A DNA stretch of 64,000 bases, taken from positions 2,467,131 to 2,531,130 of the forward strand of contig JAOSJT010000001.1 in assembly GCA_027493955.1 (NCBI GenBank). The letters run 5' to 3'. The translations under genes were made by a program, and so were the position numbers. This document shows positions 20,752 through 31,228 of the stretch, piece by piece. Under the pieces are notes generated by a model that ran no database searches, had not been told where the DNA came from, and was given only the letters and a program-made list of their open reading frames with translations. This DNA comes from Bacteroidia bacterium (GTDB taxonomy: Bacteria; Bacteroidota; Ignavibacteria; SZUA-365). Numbering within the stretch: the stretch's first letter is position 1; each line of letters begins with the position of its first letter.

Positions 20752-21594
20752 TTACTCCCGGCTGCGCGCATCCTCGACGAAACGGCAGACCGACGCGATC
20801 ACCGCTTGCCGCTCCTCCAGATGCGGCACATGCCCGCAATCCTTCAGCCAGAGTATCTCGTGCTTGCCGTGAACATGCTCCGCTATAGCATCCACCTGTG
20901 CGCGGCTGCCATAGGCGTCGCGTTCGCCCTGGATAATCAACACCGGACAGGTGATGAGCCGAAGATCGTCCAGCATATTCCATTTTTTCATGCCGGGCTG
21001 CAACCAGGTGCCGGCCCAGGCGGAAAAGACGGCGTCCGTCTTGTCCCCGTGATAGCGTGTGAGCTTGGCGCGGAGATCCGTTTCAGTATATAACCGCTGT
21101 GCGTCGCGTATGCCGTCGAGCGTAATGTCCTCGATGATCACATGCGCGGCCATGGACACCACTCCCACCGCTGCCTCCGGAAAGCTGGACGCAAATTTCA
21201 ATGCTATCGTGGCGCCGTCGCTATGTCCCAGCAGCAGCGGCCGCCTGATATTCAATGCGGAAAGGAGCGCGGGCAGTACGACCTCGGCCTCCTCTTGATA
21301 GAAATGCAGGTCCCGGGGCTTGTGCATCGGCGAGGATTGCCCGTGCCCTATCCGATCATATACAACACCGTCGCAGCCTGTCGCCTGGCATAATTCTTTG
21401 GGAAAACTTTTCCATTGCCCGACGCTCCCGAGCGCCTCGTGCAGAAACAGCAGTGTGGGAGACTGCTCCCTCGTCTCCGGAGATCTGTGCAGCAGCAGCT
21501 TCACATAGATGGAATCACCGTTCACTTCTATGTGCATCGCGCGTTCGAGTATACTGTCGCCTGCGTGCGGGTTGCGTGTCATGGCTGAGCTCAT
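20752..21594 (-). CDS. Alpha/beta-hydrolase
   Basis: 280-aa alpha/beta-hydrolase fold protein. The nucleophile elbow is GHSDGAT (Ser in GxSxG), the oxyanion region is FLHEALGSVGQW, the acid position follows VLIIQGERDAYG, and the catalytic His is in DCGHVPHLEE. The start is taken at 21594, where ATG overlaps the stop of the upstream DinB gene (ATGA-type coupling); an internal ATG at 21537 (MHIEVNGDS) is the alternative that aligns best with the fold. No signal peptide, so likely cytoplasmic. Esterase, lipase-like or MhpC-like activity cannot be chosen from sequence. Confidence 0.85.
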   Translation of the reverse strand: MSSAMTRNPHAGDSILERAMHIEVNGDSIYVKLLLHRSPETREQSPTLLFLHEALGSVGQWKSFPKELCQATGCDGVVYDRIGHGQSSPMHKPRDLHFYQEEAEVVLPALLSALNIRRPLLLGHSDGATIALKFASSFPEAAVGVVSMAAHVIIEDITLDGIRDAQRLYTETDLRAKLTRYHGDKTDAVFSAWAGTWLQPGMKKWNMLDDLRLITCPVLIIQGERDAYGSRAQVDAIAEHVHGKHEILWLKDCGHVPHLEERQAVIASVCRFVEDARSRE

Positions 21595-22091
21595 GGCTGC
21601 GCCGGCATGCCCATTGCTTCCCATTCCTCGCGCGCCGGGCCGTAGATGCCGGGTACACGCAGTCCGGCTTGCCGCATGAGTACGGTGAGCTGTGCACGGT
21701 GATGAATTTGATGCACGAGTAGTACGGAAAGCGTTTTCGCATTGCTCCACATCTCGCCGTACATGTCATGCTCCGTCGCGAGGGTTTCGTCCGTCCAGGT
21801 TTGCAGCAATTGCTCACGCAGCGAAGTCGCCGCAGTCGCGTACACCTGCGCTATCACGGCCGCGCTATCCGGCGCCGCATCGTGCTCGCCAACTCCTTCT
21901 ATGCCGAGTCCGACGCGTTTCGTCATCTCCGGCAACGATGTAACGATATGCCACGCCAGCATCCTGATGTCGCGTCCTTCGGGCGAGACCCTTTGCGCCA
22001 GCGATGCGTCGGTCAGTGCGTTGAACATGCCCAGTGTCGCATCCGCTTCGTACTTCCAGTCCCGCAAAAATTCATTGATGGTGTGATACAT
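21591..22091 (-). CDS. DinB-family metal-binding protein
   Basis: 166-aa four-helix-bundle protein of the DinB/DfsB-like superfamily, usually with three histidines binding a divalent metal. Candidate ligands here are His in LAWHIVTS and the HQIHHRAQ pair in the third helix, followed by the typical LRQAGLRVPGIYGP end. Family members include thiol S-transferases (bacillithiol or mycothiol dependent) and uncharacterised DNA-damage-inducible proteins; no specific activity is assigned. It overlaps the downstream hydrolase by 4 bp, so the two are likely cotranscribed. A second, distinct DinB gene lies at 26557-27042. Confidence 0.85.
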   Translation of the reverse strand: MYHTINEFLRDWKYEADATLGMFNALTDASLAQRVSPEGRDIRMLAWHIVTSLPEMTKRVGLGIEGVGEHDAAPDSAAVIAQVYATAATSLREQLLQTWTDETLATEHDMYGEMWSNAKTLSVLLVHQIHHRAQLTVLMRQAGLRVPGIYGPAREEWEAMGMPAQP

Positions 22092-22266: not shown

Positions 22267-22422
22267 TTGTATATCGGTGAAAGTGCCAATAATAACGTGC
22301 TCATCATATCAGACACCGACCCCGCTATATAACCTTTCACCTCTTCACCTTTTACCCCTTCACCCTTTCACCCTTTCACGATCTACCCCCTTCACTCTTC
22401 ACTCTTTACTTCACCAATCGCA

Positions 22423-22457
22423 ACAGCGGCGTCCACCGAAAAGACGAACGCCGCTGT
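22423..22457 (-). terminator. Terminator-like hairpin after serpin gene
   Basis: Perfect 10-bp arms ACAGCGGCGT / ACGCCGCTGT with a 15-nt loop, 33 bp beyond the serpin stop codon. There is no T-tract, so it may stabilise the mRNA end or act with Rho rather than being intrinsic. Confidence 0.55.
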
Positions 22458-22489: not shown

Positions 22490-23710
22490 TCAGTTGCCTA
22501 TACTCGCAACGCGGCCGATGAAGAGAATGGCACCGGTATTCACCTCGTGGATGACGAAGATGAAAGGCCTGTCCGCACGCAGTGTGGGTGGTACGGATAC
22601 AACGCCGACGCCGACGGATGTCGCAGCGGCAGCTTCCGTCCCCTCTTCGTCCACCGCGATAAAGGTTTTCTGGCGAACACTGCTGATATACAATCCTCCC
22701 TCCGGATTGATTCTGGTAAATTCGGCGACGCCGGGCTGGAAGGCCCTCGGCATGCCCATGGCCTCAAGTGTGGTGTTGAGATTGTGGTCATCCTCGAGCG
22801 TGAAACGCGGGATTTGCACTTCTACGTCTGTTTCCACCATGTTTTCAAGAATGCCGGTGGCGAATTCGGCCTCACCGAGACTGCTCTCCAGCATGCGGAG
22901 AGTTTCCACGTTTTTCGGCACGAGAACCGCCATGCGGTAGCGGTCCCAGCCGTAGGGAAGATCGGCAACGGTGTACAGCATCGTCTCGAGGTATCGGACT
23001 TTCGCCTTGCGCGCCATCATGGGCACGGTTTTCTTCACGCCGCGAATGTCGGTGAATTCCGCGTCGCGCGTGTTTTTCGCGTCGAATTTGTGCTTCCACT
23101 GTCCTTTGAAATACACGGCGTTGATCAGGTACATCACCATTTCCGGCGATATGGGCGGATCGATGATGGACGGAATTTTTCCGCCGGTGTGTGTTTTCAC
23201 CCAGTCGTTGATGATGCCCGCCGCATCGGCGCGATCGAAATCCAGGTTGCGGGCCTCCGCGTCGAAACTGGTCTTCAGCGTGGAGATAAAGTCCGGCAGC
23301 ACGGAAAAACCCTGCCGCGTCCACACCGAGTTCGCTATCGTCGTGGTCACACGGGGATCCATGGATTTGAGCACGTCCATGAGTCCGCGGTATCCCGTGT
23401 TGATGTCGCCCTGCGCCAGGGTGCCGTGCCGGAGGGCGTCACGCATTTGCGACCAGGTTTCGCCGTCGGCGCCGTTCATCGTCATTCCCAGCGCCAGCGA
23501 GGCGCTGAGAGGCGAGAGGACGATATTCGCGTCGGGTTTCGCATTCGCGACAGTGGCATACAGGCCCCAGCCGAAGGCAGAGGTGGAGCGCGAAATCTGT
23601 CGCTCGCCGGCCGTGAGTTGTCGAATCGGAGTGGGCTCGTCGGGCTGTGTCGCCTGCTCCGAGCACGCGGGGAAAAGCATTGCTATCAGAAGCGCGGGTA
23701 GAAGTCGCAT
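22490..23710 (-). CDS. Serpin, predicted lipoprotein
   Basis: 406-aa serine-protease inhibitor of the serpin fold. The start at 23710 has AGGAG 7-8 bp upstream; an ATG two codons earlier would overlap that site. The N-terminus MRLLPALLIAMLFPAC ends at a candidate lipidated Cys16, so it is probably anchored in the periplasm or outer membrane. The serpin core is recognisable: NIVLSPLSASLALGM, INAVYFKGQWKHKFD, and a reactive-centre loop with an inhibitory-type hinge EEGTEAAAATS. Alignment to alpha-1-antitrypsin puts P1-P1' at Val371-Ser374's predecessor pair, i.e. Val371-Ser372, implying an elastase-like target. It follows the anti-sigma/barrel gene by 13 bp (7 bp from the first ATG), the last gene of an ECF sigma operon. 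Confidence 0.88.
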   Translation of the reverse strand: MRLLPALLIAMLFPACSEQATQPDEPTPIRQLTAGERQISRSTSAFGWGLYATVANAKPDANIVLSPLSASLALGMTMNGADGETWSQMRDALRHGTLAQGDINTGYRGLMDVLKSMDPRVTTTIANSVWTRQGFSVLPDFISTLKTSFDAEARNLDFDRADAAGIINDWVKTHTGGKIPSIIDPPISPEMVMYLINAVYFKGQWKHKFDAKNTRDAEFTDIRGVKKTVPMMARKAKVRYLETMLYTVADLPYGWDRYRMAVLVPKNVETLRMLESSLGEAEFATGILENMVETDVEVQIPRFTLEDDHNLNTTLEAMGMPRAFQPGVAEFTRINPEGGLYISSVRQKTFIAVDEEGTEAAAATSVGVGVVSVPPTLRADRPFIFVIHEVNTGAILFIGRVASIGN

Positions 23711-23723
23711 CGTCATTCTCCTG

Positions 23724-25115
23724 TCAGAAACCGAGGGCTACGCCAAACGAGTAATTCAGTTTCGCGCTGTAGTAGGAGGTCTGTTCCACGGAGTATCGAA
23801 GCATGCCGCCTTCGATGCCCACGTTGAACATGGAGAAATTCGAGGGATACATTTCGACGCCGATGCGCACTTTGCCGAGCGGGCCCTGCTTCGTGGCGCC
23901 GACGAACGTGCGCATGTACGGATAGATCATGCCGAACATTCCGTACTCGGGCAGCGACAGCTTCCAGACTGCGCCGAATACATCGAGCATGCGACGCTCC
24001 TGGAATTCCGCCATGGTTGCTGTTTCCGCAGGTACGCCGACCTGCAGGACATTCGGGTCATCCGTCGGGAAGCGACGGACGGGGATCATCCGGGAAAATT
24101 CCTGTCCGAAGTCTTCCCGCCCGTATTCGAAACCGAAGGCGTGATGCTCGGTGGCCTTGTACACCGCGCTGAGCGCCATGTTCTCGAACACCTTATGCGA
24201 ACTGTGCTGTAGGTCCACATCCGGATATGATTTGCCGTATTGCTTACGGATTTCAAATACCATGTTCGAAAGCAGCGACGCTCCGGCAACCGGTCGGAAG
24301 AAATGCCAAGGCTCGATGATGCCGGTCTGTGTCATGCTAATTGGCTCCGGTGCCGGCGTACGCAGGATGATATCGTCGGCAGTACGGCGCAGGACCACCG
24401 GCAAGGCGACAAACGTTGAAGCGGCCGGCCCCGGATACGCAAGTGCATCCGGCTGTGGCATGGCAACTGCCGCTCCGGATTGCCCGCTGCTCACAGGCTG
24501 CGTGCGCAACGACGCCATGGGAGGAAGAGAGGGCGTAGAGGAAATGCCTGCCGTTGCCCTTGCAGCGTCCTGTGGCGGGGATGTCGCTCCGGTTACATCC
24601 GTATTCTCAATCCGCGGCTGCCGCGGGTCCGCGTTCTCGCGCGGTTCGTACGCCTCGGATTGGCGTGTTCCCTGTGTGTATGACTCAACGGTTTCGACCC
24701 CAATCCCGCCGCCCGGTACTGCCGGGGTCTCGATTGCGGCACGCTGATCATTGTATGTGAACAATAGGGCTGTGATGCCGGCCGCGGCGACTGCGGTGGC
24801 CACGTATCCGCGATATTGCGACAACCAGGTACCGAGGCCGAGGATGGCAGCGGCGGAGCGTTTCAGCCAGGAAGACGAGGCGGCGGGAACGGTTTGCGGG
24901 GTGGAAAGACCGAGATCAACGAACAACTTTTCCTTGACATGCGCCGGCGTGGTAATGGATGCCGCGTCTTCCTGAATCATGGAATGCAGCCGCATGTGCT
25001 CCAGGAATTGCCTTCGCAGTTCGGGATCGGCCGCCATGTCGCTGAACAGCGCATCCTCAAGCGACTCGTCCAGTCCCTCGTCGAAAAAGCCGTGTAATAA
25101 TTCCTCGTGACGCAT
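23724..25115 (-). CDS. Anti-sigma factor fused to outer-membrane-barrel-like domain (Dma-like)
   Basis: 463 aa with no N-terminal signal peptide. Residues 1-70 are an acidic helical anti-sigma-like domain (HEELLHGFFDEGLDES). Residues about 87-121 are hydrophobic with one clear inner-membrane helix (GYVATAVAAAGITALLF). Residues 123-280 are a Pro/Ala/Thr/Ser-rich disordered linker. Residues 281-463 have alternating amphipathic strands and end KLNYSFGVALGF, a textbook C-terminal beta-signal with terminal Phe. It lies 26 bp downstream of an ECF sigma gene. This is the layout of dual-membrane-spanning anti-sigma proteins (Dma) reported in Bacteroides thetaiotaomicron; the assignment here is inference from layout. 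The N-terminus is similar to the anti-sigma at 30512, and the C-terminus to the barrel protein at 31235. Confidence 0.75.
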   Translation of the reverse strand: MRHEELLHGFFDEGLDESLEDALFSDMAADPELRRQFLEHMRLHSMIQEDAASITTPAHVKEKLFVDLGLSTPQTVPAASSSWLKRSAAAILGLGTWLSQYRGYVATAVAAAGITALLFTYNDQRAAIETPAVPGGGIGVETVESYTQGTRQSEAYEPRENADPRQPRIENTDVTGATSPPQDAARATAGISSTPSLPPMASLRTQPVSSGQSGAAVAMPQPDALAYPGPAASTFVALPVVLRRTADDIILRTPAPEPISMTQTGIIEPWHFFRPVAGASLLSNMVFEIRKQYGKSYPDVDLQHSSHKVFENMALSAVYKATEHHAFGFEYGREDFGQEFSRMIPVRRFPTDDPNVLQVGVPAETATMAEFQERRMLDVFGAVWKLSLPEYGMFGMIYPYMRTFVGATKQGPLGKVRIGVEMYPSNFSMFNVGIEGGMLRYSVEQTSYYSAKLNYSFGVALGF

Positions 25116-25141
25116 GGGTCGTCTGCTTTCTGTACTACTTG

Positions 25142-25705
25142 CTACTTGTTGAGGTCGCTGATGTACGGAGAAAGAATACTCCGCACCTGATCCTTTGCGC
25201 GCATCACACGGATTTTCAGGGATGCGACAGAATCGCCTGTGATTTCGGAAATTTCCTTGTACGAAAGCCCTTCATAAAATCGCATGATGAATGCCTCTCG
25301 ATAGGTGTCGTCCAGCAGGTCCAGAGCCGAACGGATGAGATTCATCAATTCGTTGCGCTCATACAGCGGGACCTGCTCGGCAATTTGCTGCTCGTCGTCA
25401 AAGGGCGACCATTGTACCACATTTCTTCGCGTGTTCAGGAAAATGTTTCTGGCGCTGGTGAGCAGATACGCAAGGATGTTCAGAATCTGCTCGTCCGTCT
25501 GCGTGTGCTTGTAGAAGCGTGTAAACGTTTCCTGAAAAATGTCCGCCGCACTGTCGGGATCGCCTGTCATGCGCAGGCAAAAGGTGTACACTCTGCGTTC
25601 ATACCGGGAAAACAGCTCTCGAAACGCTGCGTCCTTCTCCTTGCCGTTCAACTTGAACGCCGCGAAGAGCTCTGTGTCGGTATGTCTGCTGAAATCCGCG
25701 GACAT
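25142..25705 (-). CDS. ECF-type RNA polymerase sigma factor
   Basis: 187-aa sigma-70 family factor with only regions 2 and 4. Region 2 shows ELFSRYERRVYTFCLRM and DSAADIFQETFTRFY (core-binding and -10 recognition). Region 4 shows LDDTYREAFIMRFYEGLSYKEISEI and the SLKIRVMRAKDQV recognition helix. It directs RNA polymerase to a dedicated regulon and is presumably held inactive by the adjacent anti-sigma/barrel protein encoded 26 bp downstream. A GTAAC-N17-GTCT promoter candidate lies upstream, suggesting autoregulation. The regulon beyond its own operon is unknown. Confidence 0.92.
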   Translation of the reverse strand: MSADFSRHTDTELFAAFKLNGKEKDAAFRELFSRYERRVYTFCLRMTGDPDSAADIFQETFTRFYKHTQTDEQILNILAYLLTSARNIFLNTRRNVVQWSPFDDEQQIAEQVPLYERNELMNLIRSALDLLDDTYREAFIMRFYEGLSYKEISEITGDSVASLKIRVMRAKDQVRSILSPYISDLNK

Positions 25706-25760
25706 GGATCGCGTTGTTGGTCTTCCGGTTATTGTCCGGTGCGAAGCTGCGCGAATCCGT

Positions 25761-25792
25761 CTATATAGACACTGTCGCGCAGAGTCGGTTAC
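25761..25792 (-). promoter_or_regulatory. Candidate ECF sigma promoter (autoregulatory)
   Basis: Read on the minus strand: TGTAAC (GTAAC at 25792-25788), a 17-nt spacer, then GTCTATA (starting 25770). This resembles ECF -35 (xxAAC) and -10 (GTC) elements. It lies 56-87 bp upstream of the sigma start codon at 25705, in the short gap after the rhomboid gene. A similar pair precedes the second sigma gene. Confidence 0.5.
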
Positions 25793-25804
25793 AAATTAGC
25801 ACGT

Positions 25805-26434
25805 TTAGCCGCCATTCAACAGCGTTGCAATCCCGGTCAAAAATATCTGCACTGACCGGGGATCGAGTATGACCGTGAGCAGCAGGCCCGAAAGTGCTCC
25901 GTACAGATGCACGTCGTGACCGACATTTCCCCACTGTCGCTTATTGCCCATAATGCTGACAAGCACAAACAGCACCGCAAATACGGGCCACGGCAAGGGA
26001 ATCGGCAGAAGAAAGATCATGACTTTCGCGCCCGGAAAATAGAGCATCCCGCTGAAAAACAGGGCGGAAACGGCGCCGGAAGCGCCCAGGGCGCTGTAAT
26101 GCGGATTATCCCGCTGTTTCCGTGTCGGGAGTATGGCGGCCGCCGCGACGCTCGCCAGGTAGAGCACGGCCAGTCGCGCGCTTCCCATCACGCTCTCCAG
26201 CGCAAAGCTTACGGAATACAACGCGATCATGTTGAATGCCAGATGAATGATATCAGCATGTATGAAACCGTAGCTGAAGAGGCGGTAGTACTCGCGTCTG
26301 CGGACAATATCCCATGGATACAGCAGTGCCGCGGCGCGAAACCGTTCCGAACGAAAGGCAAGAACGCTGGCCGCGATAGTGGCTGCCAGCAGTATCCAGG
26401 AAACAGGGAAGGCGGTAAATCCGGGATCGGCCAT
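25805..26434 (-). CDS. Rhomboid-family intramembrane serine protease
   Basis: 209-aa polytopic membrane protein with about six helices. Rhomboid catalytic features are present: HLAFNM (His64 and Asn68, oxyanion-side), GASG with the nucleophile Ser119, and VGHDVHLYGALSG with the general-base His176. WxR-like loop-1 residues are less clear. Rhomboids cut single-pass membrane proteins within or near their helix, preferring small or helix-breaking residues. The gene is immediately upstream of, and codirectional with, the ECF sigma/anti-sigma-barrel/serpin genes, making the Ala/Gly-rich helix of the anti-sigma protein a possible substrate (inference). Confidence 0.88.
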   Translation of the reverse strand: MADPGFTAFPVSWILLAATIAASVLAFRSERFRAAALLYPWDIVRRREYYRLFSYGFIHADIIHLAFNMIALYSVSFALESVMGSARLAVLYLASVAAAAILPTRKQRDNPHYSALGASGAVSALFFSGMLYFPGAKVMIFLLPIPLPWPVFAVLFVLVSIMGNKRQWGNVGHDVHLYGALSGLLLTVILDPRSVQIFLTGIATLLNGG

Positions 26435-26556
26435 GCGGTCTTCCGTCTTGTGTCGTGTTCAGTGTAAAGGTAACTTTTCTGTCGGTCATCTTCTCAACAC
26501 GGAATGCCGTCGTTCCGGTTCACACACCGCATTCTGCAGTACGAAAGGTCCTTCGC

Positions 26557-27042
26557 ATGGATACGTTGTCGCAACTGAAAAAAACCTTTGTCTGGAATAC
26601 CCTGGCCAACAAGCGCGTACTCGCCGCAATCGAAGAAGCTGCAGCGGATGCGGCTGTGGTGACCTTGCTCTCGCACGCACTCATGGCCGAGTACATCTGG
26701 TTCCTGCGCATCGAGGGCTTCGACACCACCACGCGTGAGGTGTGGCCGGCGTTGAGTCCGGCCGAATGCCGTGAACGCTGCGGCGAAAATGACGCCATCA
26801 TCAGCGCGTATCTCACCAGTGCATCGGAGGCGGAACTGGCGCGGGACGTTTCATACAAGAACAGCCGGGGAGACGCGTTCACGACCTCCGTTGCCGATAT
26901 CCTGACCCACGTCACGCATCACTCCGCCTATCACAGGGCGCAGATCAACCGGCGACTGCGCGAGTGCGGCGCGAAACCTGCGGTGGTGGACTTCATCTCC
27001 TTCGCACGCGGCGAATGGCCTGAAACCGGCGTGCAGGGCTGA
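26557..27042 (+). CDS. DinB-family protein (second paralogue)
   Basis: 161-aa DinB-like four-helix-bundle protein. Probable metal ligands are His in LSHALMAEYIW and the THHSAYHRAQINRRL helix, followed by the common VDFISFARGE ending. The start at 26557 follows a GAAAGG ribosome-binding sequence; the longer upstream frame has no support. It differs clearly from the DinB gene at 21591 and most resembles the YfiT/damage-inducible type in outline. It converges on the alkaline phosphatase gene with a 67-bp gap. Activity unknown. Confidence 0.85.
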   Translation: MDTLSQLKKTFVWNTLANKRVLAAIEEAAADAAVVTLLSHALMAEYIWFLRIEGFDTTTREVWPALSPAECRERCGENDAIISAYLTSASEAELARDVSYKNSRGDAFTTSVADILTHVTHHSAYHRAQINRRLRECGAKPAVVDFISFARGEWPETGVQG

Positions 27043-29520: not shown

Positions 29521-29997
29521 CGTTCTCAATCGGCTGAAAGTCAAAAATAGTCATTTTCCCTGAAGAAGACGATACGGATACTCACGAAAGCGCCTGAGGG
29601 GCATGACAGACAGCATTGCGGCAGCGGCAAGTGCTCAGAAATGTACCGGCATCCTCGCATCGAACACAGCACCCCCAATTCGCTGCTCCTCGCTCCCGGC
29701 TGCTACGCGATGAACAGGCCCTTCCATGGAATGTTGAGGTAGTATTGCATGCACCAGTTCATTTCATCGGCAGCTTGCGGTGATTTCCGCGGCGGAAAGT
29801 CACATGAAGGCCCGTCGGACCAGAAAACGGTGTTGTGACAGACGCCGAAACGGAATGAAAATAATCTGCTTCTCCCTCTGATAATTGCCCTGAAAAATGT
29901 AACTTTCCCTACTCGGAAGCGGTCATTCAACCACGGTGATTTTTGCGGTTTTTCACCGGATTCCCAACAATTGCCGAGCTTAGACATCGATTGATTG
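29521..29997. other. Divergent intergenic region with ECF promoter candidate
   Basis: About 480 bp between the minus-strand DUF192 gene and the plus-strand sigma gene. Open frames inside it have no recognisable product. The only feature I can support is a GTAAC...GTCA promoter candidate at 29899-29925. The rest shows nothing notable. Confidence 0.5.
29899..29925 (+). promoter_or_regulatory. Candidate ECF sigma promoter of second sigma locus
   Basis: TGTAAC (GTAAC at 29899-29903), an 18-nt spacer, and GTCA (29922-29925), about 72 bp before the sigma ATG. It shares the GTAAC and GTC elements with the site upstream of the other sigma gene, with one extra spacer base. Confidence 0.4.
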
Positions 29998-30519
29998 ATG
30001 ACGGAACACGACAGGCGCTCGCGCTTCGATGCAATTTACGCCCAGTACGACCGGCGTGTTCTGGCCTATTGCGTGTACGTGCTGGGCGACAGAGACAAAG
30101 CGAACGACGTGTTTCAGGATGTGTTCATCAAGACGTACACGATGCTGCACACCATACGTGAGGAAGACAAAACCGCCAACTGGCTTTTTCGCATTGCGCG
30201 CAACGAATGTCTCAACGCGATGAAATCGAGACAACGTGACGACAGACGCAACATTGCGATAGACGACGATTTCGAAATCGCCCAGCCGCAGCCGCTTTCG
30301 ATGGACGATATCGATCAGACACAGCACCTGAATTGGGCCCTGGCACAGCTCTCTCCCGAGCACCGCGACGCCCTTCTGCTCGCCGAGTTCGAAGGCTTTT
30401 CCCTGAAGGAAATTGCCGAGATGACGGGAGCGACCGTTTCCAACGTAAAAGTGCGCATTCATCGCGCGAAACTCAGAATGCAGAAACTCCTCGAACCGAT
30501 ATTGCACAACAATGAATGA
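29998..30519 (+). CDS. ECF-type RNA polymerase sigma factor (second locus)
   Basis: 173-aa sigma-70 family factor with regions 2 and 4 only. Region 2: RFDAIYAQYDRRVLAYCVYV, DKANDVFQDVFIKTY, and ANWLFRIARNECLN. Region 4: LSPEHRDALLLAEFEGFSLKE and TVSNVKVRIHRAKLRMQ. The start is the ATG at 29998 in preference to the TTG just before it. The stop overlaps the anti-sigma gene start by 8 bp, the typical arrangement for a cognate sigma/anti-sigma pair. It is divergent in sequence from the first locus sigma but of the same general class. Confidence 0.92.
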   Translation: MTEHDRRSRFDAIYAQYDRRVLAYCVYVLGDRDKANDVFQDVFIKTYTMLHTIREEDKTANWLFRIARNECLNAMKSRQRDDRRNIAIDDDFEIAQPQPLSMDDIDQTQHLNWALAQLSPEHRDALLLAEFEGFSLKEIAEMTGATVSNVKVRIHRAKLRMQKLLEPILHNNE

Positions 30520-31228
30520 ACGCATCCACGAACTGATCATCGGCTACCTGCACGGAGGCAACACCCCCGAACAGGACAAAGAGCTGTTTGATGCATGCAG
30601 CATGCATCCCGAGACCGCAGAACATCTGCGCATGCAGATCATGCTTTCGCTCAAACTCCGCGGCCTGAGGGAACAGACACAGGTTCCCGCCGATCTGAGA
30701 AACGACCTGCTGCTCCGCGTGAACGAACTGCAGGCCGGACGGGAAGCCGCGATGCCGCCAGCTCCCGTTGCGAGCCTCGCTCCCCGCCGCTTCGGCTGGG
30801 CACACATGTTCGGCAGCGCTCTGGCAGCGGGTGCCGCCGTCTGGATGCTCTTCTTCTTCGTGACCGAGAGCGATATCCCCGTATCGAACGCGGGCATCAT
30901 CGATACGCTGCGCGTTGTGGAACGAGACACGGTCGTGCAAACCCGTGATATTGTGCGTCCGGTGTACATCACACGCACCGCGGAGCAGGCACGTCCCGAC
31001 GATGCGGCGGCGGAAGACATGCCTGCGCTCACCGACAGACCGGTCGCTCCGGACGCCGTCACACCCGACATCCCGTCCGTACTCGAAGATGTGAGTTACG
31101 CGGAGGTGCAGCCGTTGCGCGAGCTGCAGCGCCAGGCAAAGGTGAGCCAGTATCTCCAACAGTACAACGCCATGCTGGCCTCGGTAGAGTCGGTTCAGCT
31201 CACTTCACGGGACAGAGTCTCACAGTAA
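30512..31228 (+). CDS. Single-pass anti-sigma factor
   Basis: 238-aa protein. Residues 1-75 form a helical, acidic cytoplasmic domain (ELIIGYLHGGNTPEQDKEL) similar in pattern to the start of the 463-aa anti-sigma/barrel protein at 23724. No zinc-finger HxxxCxxC is seen. Residues about 97-117 are the inner-membrane helix (FGSALAAGAAVWMLFFFV). The periplasmic tail has VVERDTVVQTRD repeats and a C-terminal helical stretch (RELQRQAKVSQYLQQY). It overlaps the sigma gene by 8 bp and precedes the barrel gene by 6 bp. It presumably sequesters the sigma factor at the membrane and senses the neighbouring envelope proteins (inference). Confidence 0.82.
   Translation: MNERIHELIIGYLHGGNTPEQDKELFDACSMHPETAEHLRMQIMLSLKLRGLREQTQVPADLRNDLLLRVNELQAGREAAMPPAPVASLAPRRFGWAHMFGSALAAGAAVWMLFFFVTESDIPVSNAGIIDTLRVVERDTVVQTRDIVRPVYITRTAEQARPDDAAAEDMPALTDRPVAPDAVTPDIPSVLEDVSYAEVQPLRELQRQAKVSQYLQQYNAMLASVESVQLTSRDRVSQ

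Follow-up and report, generated by a model that had tools for sequence, protein, structure and literature searches.

What brings an intramembrane protease, an extracytoplasmic function (ECF) sigma factor, an anti-sigma factor fused to a barrel-like domain and a serpin together in a single run of genes, and do these proteins act in one pathway? The question is raised by four open reading frames (ORFs), all on the minus strand, at positions 22490-26434 of a 64,000-nucleotide stretch of DNA, hereafter called the window, from a Bacteroidia bacterium placed by GTDB in the Ignavibacteria, SZUA-365 (assembly GCA_027493955.1, contig JAOSJT010000001.1, positions 2,467,131 to 2,531,130). An initial annotation, made from the sequence alone, had read them as one four-part module in which the serpin restrains an envelope protease and the rhomboid makes the cut that finally frees sigma. 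Our results point to a different organization, to which we assign a probability of roughly 0.7: the locus would constitute a sigma switch of the Dma type that senses the envelope, regulates its own expression, controls a regulon of exported proteins and has the serpin as an output.

The genes themselves, their order, their spacing and their motifs stand as first annotated. Last in the direction of transcription lies the serpin gene (22490..23716, minus strand; Pfam PF00079, E=5.7e-104), whose product starts with a lipoprotein signal peptide (MTMRLLPALLIAMLFPAC followed by SEQ). It is preceded, on the same strand, by the genes for a 463-residue anti-sigma/barrel protein of the Dma type (23724..25115), classified by its architecture and its homologues, an ECF sigma factor of 187 aa (25142..25705; Pfam Sigma70_r2 and r4_2) and a rhomboid intramembrane serine protease of 209 aa (25805..26434; Pfam PF01694, E=6.5e-26). 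The gaps measure 99 bp between rhomboid and sigma, 26 bp between sigma and anti-sigma, and 7 bp between anti-sigma and serpin, a distance that widens to 13 bp should the second ATG be the start. The search of related genomes that had been proposed as a check found both rhomboid and serpin beside the sigma pair in relatives of the same family: three genera, the window's among them, have the genes arranged as rhomboid-sigma-Dma-serpin (with the run split at contig ends in some relatives), at protein identities of ~45-50% for Dma and serpin in the two other genera. Given this conservation in two further genera, the arrangement is not mere chance. In 7/7 genomes that carry both on one contig (the window's and six relatives), the serpin gene comes directly after Dma in the same orientation, 7-92 bp away; together with sigma, the two appear to form a tight operon in the relatives of the family, and only the window's genus and those grouped with it have the serpin within this operon. 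A different arrangement is seen in one relative (G001, locus L051), in which rhomboid directly follows sigma and Dma in the same orientation; this locus lies outside the block of genes conserved in the family and has other neighbours, and a serpin was not found anywhere in the genome of this relative. Another genome, G004, contains the rhomboid and has neither this Dma nor a serpin.

The rhomboid gene is separated from the other three by a conserved ECF-type promoter element, TGTAACC-N14-GTGTCT (25767..25793, minus strand), which was recognized by aligning the upstream sequences of the sigma genes of relatives and begins ~12 bp past the stop codon of the rhomboid gene. Its core, TGTAACC-N14-GTGTC, is present in 10/10 readable sigma upstream regions (the window's and those of nine relatives), including that of the rearranged G001. 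Because this invariant element sits between rhomboid and sigma, the rhomboid lies outside the sigma-Dma-serpin transcription unit in the window, so that the four genes apparently do not make up one operon. No conserved promoter-like element was detected in the regions upstream of rhomboid in the relatives compared. A pattern with a spacer of 15-18 bp missed the promoter sites, whose true spacer is 14.

The same element recurs in front of other genes. An exact search for TGTAACC-N14-GTGTC returned 32 matches across 12 genomes of the family, with at least one in 11 of them and none in G004, the one genome without this sigma pair; the reversed pattern, used as a control, gave 0 matches in the same 12 genomes. 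Ten of the 32 exact sites belong to the sigma genes themselves. Among the other exact sites, 16/21 lie upstream of genes for proteins with a signal peptide, set against a crude background of 15/45 among the long ORFs of the window, and the remaining 5/21 precede the gene for one conserved protein of 82 aa. The exported products encoded behind these sites include proteins with sorting domains of the type IX secretion system (T9SS), a lipoprotein family, proteins of the TonB-receptor type (with TonB plug domains) and M1 and S41 peptidases. When one mismatch was allowed, the window's own genome yielded 11 sites and the control 4, a ratio that marks a few of the one-mismatch sites as noise.

Two of the predicted targets can be described further. 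The 82-aa protein (NPLRDIIDD...FSEKAIRDYMIRRMFKNMRQ...QFDTVRKIVYQISK) lacks a signal peptide; its copy in the window's genome (L296:3788-4033, at ~2.337 Mb) has no Pfam match, and its relatives are found at L243, L244, L248, L249, L251, L302 and L303. The sigma promoter motif stands ahead of its gene in eight family genomes, with one mismatch in three of them, the window's included. The lipoprotein family lies behind a predicted sigma promoter in three genomes (L295:3693-4247, with relatives at L255, L257 and L260); the window's own copy has a promoter with one mismatch and no Pfam match.

The anti-sigma/barrel protein, for which there was no Pfam match, shows in alignments a domain layout that supports the fusion proposed in the initial annotation. 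It comprises a putative cytoplasmic anti-sigma domain at the N-terminus (~residues 1-75; 24891..25115, minus strand, as for all its segments), which forms a conserved block in two alignments, a predicted inner-membrane helix (~residues 100-121; 24753..24818), delimited by a hydrophobicity scan and alignment, a likely periplasmic tether of low complexity, poor conservation and variable length (~residues 122-265; 24321..24752), and a strongly conserved, strand-rich, beta-barrel-like domain at the C-terminus (23724..24320), which ends in ...FGVALGF with a terminal aromatic residue. Homologues from the same class share the conserved N-terminus of ~75 residues, the single hydrophobic helix, the long variable tether and the conserved, strand-rich C-terminus of ~200 residues that ends in an aromatic residue; some of them give weak matches to zf-HC2 and RseA_N, and one to OMP_b-brl. 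A homologue search across the phylum matched only genomes of this class, and a PDB profile search with the Dma alignment returned no meaningful match. An ECF sigma gene lies directly upstream of Dma in 63/63 homologous loci outside this orthologue group, which, along with the Pfam sigma domains, bears out the annotated sigma/anti-sigma pair; no rhomboid or serpin was detected within ~5-6 kb of any of these 63 loci (a few of the contigs being shorter). The window's genome contains at least four Dma-type pairs (that of the window and those at L066, L067 and L068), pointing to several parallel sigma switches that sense the outer membrane.

This predicted layout matches that of the Dma class of Bacteroides thetaiotaomicron; the assignment of the protein to this class rests on its architecture and context rather than on proven homology to the Bacteroides proteins. 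In the Dma1-Das1 and Dma2-Das2 systems, an ECF sigma gene likewise sits beside the gene for an anti-sigma factor with a cytoplasmic, sigma-binding N-terminus, a single transmembrane helix, a disordered tether and a C-terminal outer-membrane beta-barrel, and additional genes share the operon (PMC13088901; Pardue et al., 2024, cited there). Cognate sigma factors of the class belong to group ECF21; for the sigma factor of the window, the best NCBIfam model is TIGR02985, with a score below the cut-off. The present locus differs from these systems in its Ignavibacteria-type lineage, the serpin in its operon, the adjoining rhomboid gene and the predicted regulon of exported proteins. The initial view that the module is undescribed holds in part: no paper combining a sigma/Dma-type anti-sigma pair, a serpin and a rhomboid was found in the literature searched, whereas the layout of the anti-sigma fusion is that of the Bacteroides class. 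What appears to be new is that a serpin is among the outputs, that a promoter and regulon are predicted for Ignavibacteria-type bacteria, and that a rhomboid gene is linked.

The serpin is predicted to be an inhibitory-type lipoprotein with an elastase-like residue (Val or Thr) at P1. It carries an inhibitory hinge (EEGTEAAAATS), and its reactive loop (hinge and reactive-centre loop EEGTEAAAATSVGVGVVSVPPTLR; 22577..22648, minus strand, defined by alignments) aligns without gaps, at equal length, with the alpha-1-antitrypsin loop carried by conserpin, which places the predicted P1-P1' bond at Val373-Ser374; this position is Thr-Ser in the seven serpin orthologues aligned. Conserpin and miropin are among the closest solved structures by profile. 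In most orthologues the mature part opens with Cys-Ser/Lys and then two acidic residues (C-S-E-Q in the window), similar to the acidic signals by which Bacteroidota export lipoproteins (PMC5080379), a likeness that suggests surface exposure. While the lipoprotein serpin of the initial annotation is thus supported, its proposed role in restraining an envelope protease is weakened, because its position in the operon and the predicted regulon place it among the outputs of sigma. Such an output looks like a better fit for protection or negative feedback than for the constitutive restraint of an activating protease. A second type of serpin, not linked to a sigma pair, is encoded in two other genomes (G003:C3:93565-94638 and G006:C2:48700-49773; L069 and L070) and has a loop lysine at or near P1, as in trypsin-directed inhibitors.

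In the switch that we propose, the anti-sigma factor would span both membranes, with its N-terminal domain holding the ECF sigma factor at the inner membrane, its barrel in the outer membrane and the flexible tether in between. In response to a disturbance or a ligand at the outer membrane, sigma would be set free, probably because the anti-sigma factor is cut. Once free, sigma would act on TGTAACC-N14-GTGTCT promoters and thereby induce its own operon (sigma, Dma and serpin), the 82-aa protein and a small set of exported proteins that includes T9SS-type cargo, lipoproteins, TonB-dependent receptors and some peptidases. The serpin, as an outer-membrane lipoprotein, would trap elastase-like serine proteases and protect the surface as well as newly exported proteins, and it may also damp the proteolysis that set off the switch. 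The rhomboid, linked and separately transcribed, would be a candidate enzyme for one of the cuts behind this release. Of this scheme, the sequence itself shows the genes and their order, the promoter element and its enrichment, the conservation and the exported targets, while the membrane topology, the sensing, the use of the promoters by this sigma factor, the serpin's target and release by proteolysis are inferences.

Several observations weigh against this interpretation. There is a single exact non-self site in the window's own genome, and most of the evidence for the regulon comes from relatives. T9SS sorting domains are common (150 matches or more in the genome of the window), which makes the enrichment of cargo less striking; we therefore refer to the targets more safely as exported and envelope proteins. 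AlphaFold gave a mean pLDDT (its per-residue confidence score) of 37 for the full anti-sigma factor, with helices at residues 3-67 in a low-confidence model, and of 44 for the barrel domain alone, so that barrel and membrane topology rest on sequence pattern. Moreover, the surrounding block is likewise conserved in the family over more than 20 kb, with genes for hydrolases and secreted proteins and neighbours that look unrelated, and since conservation extends to these neighbours, proximity alone proves little. The rearranged locus of G001 is more informative in this respect than the conserved block.

For the release of sigma, the alternative that survives best, with a chance that we put just short of even, is canonical regulated proteolysis, in which a periplasmic or surface protease and then an M50 site-2 protease would cut the anti-sigma factor, with no part for the rhomboid. 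It is a version of the release step of the proposed switch and does not contest the serpin as an output. M50 site-2 proteases are the usual enzymes, and the default, for anti-sigma helices with an N-in orientation, and one is present in 5/5 genomes checked, including the window's. That the rhomboid gene of the window precedes the sigma promoter also favours this route, as does the generic distribution of rhomboids: a close relative of this protein exists in 69/118 Bacteroidota genomes sampled, no sigma or Dma gene was detected within ~5 kb at 32/32 rhomboid loci examined across the phylum, and no neighbour is widely shared among these loci. With 0/32 loci in its support, the notion that Bacteroidota rhomboids generally lie near sigma pairs was rejected. 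The rhomboid thus appears to be a general gene with no set place in the genome; in one family, and there in two different arrangements, it accompanies this particular sigma pair. Canonical proteolysis leaves unexplained why it should lie directly 3' of the pair, on the same strand, in the rearranged G001.

The three remaining explanations we consider improbable. One of them develops the initial annotation: the serpin would restrain an envelope serine protease that, when this restraint fails, sheds barrel and tether, whereupon the rhomboid cuts the anti-sigma helix and frees sigma. The active-site residues of the rhomboid are indeed intact, as Ser119 in the GASG motif, His176 and His64/Asn68 in the HLAFN motif are invariant in 11 orthologues, in agreement with the motifs first annotated; its nearest solved relative is GlpG, and an identity as rhombosortase was dismissed (TIGR03902, 45 bits at a cut-off of 84). 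It also stands beside the sigma-Dma pair in two arrangements, in the family block and in G001, though unfixed elsewhere in the phylum, and the parts of the Dma2 paper at hand leave the mechanism of sigma release by Dma proteins unsettled (PMC13088901). In addition, the active site of a rhomboid could be reached by a recognition site that lies in a flexible stretch apart from the helix and loops back, as discussed for a type II substrate (PMC2941825), and the long, disordered anti-sigma tether would, by analogy, permit such looping. However, rhomboid genes are missing from the vicinity of all 63 other Dma loci, G004 has the rhomboid without the sigma pair, rhomboids of this type are widespread in the phylum, an M50 site-2 protease is available and G001 has no serpin. 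Furthermore, the anti-sigma helix should be oriented N-in/C-out, opposite to most known rhomboid substrates, which are N-out. The Ala/Gly-rich composition of the helix, initially taken as the type favoured by rhomboids, is not distinctive either: its Ala/Gly/Ser/Thr fraction is 0.50, compared with 0.44 in family paralogues without a rhomboid (p=0.38), several of which equal or exceed the orthologue group. Compared with all other Dma proteins pooled, the orthologues show a slight excess (p=0.014), and composition was not upheld as a mark of a rhomboid substrate.

The widespread, unlinked occurrence of rhomboids and the orientation of the helix thus weaken the initial idea that the rhomboid frees sigma, a role that is possible but unproven and that we regard as speculative. 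What makes it a candidate release protease is its linkage to the sigma-Dma pair, which is suggestive; no rhomboid link to a sigma/anti-sigma pair of this kind was found in the literature searched. A bolder combination, in which the rhomboid cuts the tether or juxtamembrane region to release sigma and the sigma-driven surface serpin traps the very protease that started the signal, as negative feedback, strikes us as doubtful. If true, it would represent a rhomboid-gated, serpin-damped sigma pathway, which the literature searched did not contain, and would explain by what means sigma is freed from this Dma-type protein.

Signalling might also dispense with proteolysis altogether, with sigma leaving an intact anti-sigma factor when the barrel changes conformation or loses its insertion into the outer membrane, as in a tension or assembly sensor. 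A tether that links two membranes could work mechanically; proteolysis is nevertheless what releases many well-studied single-pass anti-sigma factors, and we judge this possibility to be small. In its favour, the accessible portion of the Dma2 paper contains no finding of Dma protein cleavage (PMC13088901). Finally, the reading of the rhomboid-sigma-Dma-serpin proximity as conserved synteny without functional meaning, to which the conservation of the whole block lends some weight, seems unlikely in view of the tight spacing of serpin behind Dma, in the same orientation, in all relatives whose sequence shows both genes, the rhomboid link that recurs outside the block in G001 and the invariant promoter element.

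The switch that we propose shares features with several known systems. In a comparison that draws partly on general knowledge, it resembles the RseA-SigmaE/RseP system of E. coli in its single-pass anti-sigma factor with a cytoplasmic N-terminus on the ECF sigma factor, its envelope-stress logic, its AAC/GTC-type ECF promoter and the presence of an M50 protease in the genome; unlike the protein studied here, RseA has no outer-membrane barrel, and its operon includes neither a rhomboid nor a serpin. As a Bacteroidota serpin with an inhibitory hinge, the inhibitor is akin to miropin-type serpins (Tannerella forsythia), from which it differs in its apparent co-transcription with a sigma/anti-sigma pair and its predicted P1 Val/Thr. 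The rhomboid has the core, the Ser/His dyad and the HxxxN motif of GlpG-type enzymes; here it adjoins a sigma/anti-sigma pair, in one bacterial family. A link between an ECF sigma factor and T9SS-related genes in Bacteroidota is also known from PorXY-SigP of Porphyromonas gingivalis, where SigP and a two-component system work in one cascade that targets genes of the T9SS machine (PMC4800418); the targets predicted here, in contrast, are cargo and proteins of the envelope, and this sigma factor is paired with a Dma-type anti-sigma factor.

As to the surroundings of the run, DinB-family genes flank it on both sides (21591-22091, minus strand; 26455-27042, plus strand), the second of which separates the rhomboid from the genes that usually lie upstream of it; several relatives lack this second gene at that position. 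A low-complexity run of GTGAAAGG-like units (22320-22440, minus strand) lies just 3' of the serpin gene. Another ECF sigma gene, divergently placed (29995-30519, plus strand), is followed by an anti-sigma-like gene (30512-31228, plus strand); this pair is kept in the same conserved block of the family and has a TGTAAC...GGTC element 97 nt upstream.

Collectively, one locus offers a candidate promoter, predicted target genes, a candidate release protease and an output in the form of a protease trap, and each of these steps is testable. With it, a bacterial serpin would gain a regulatory context.

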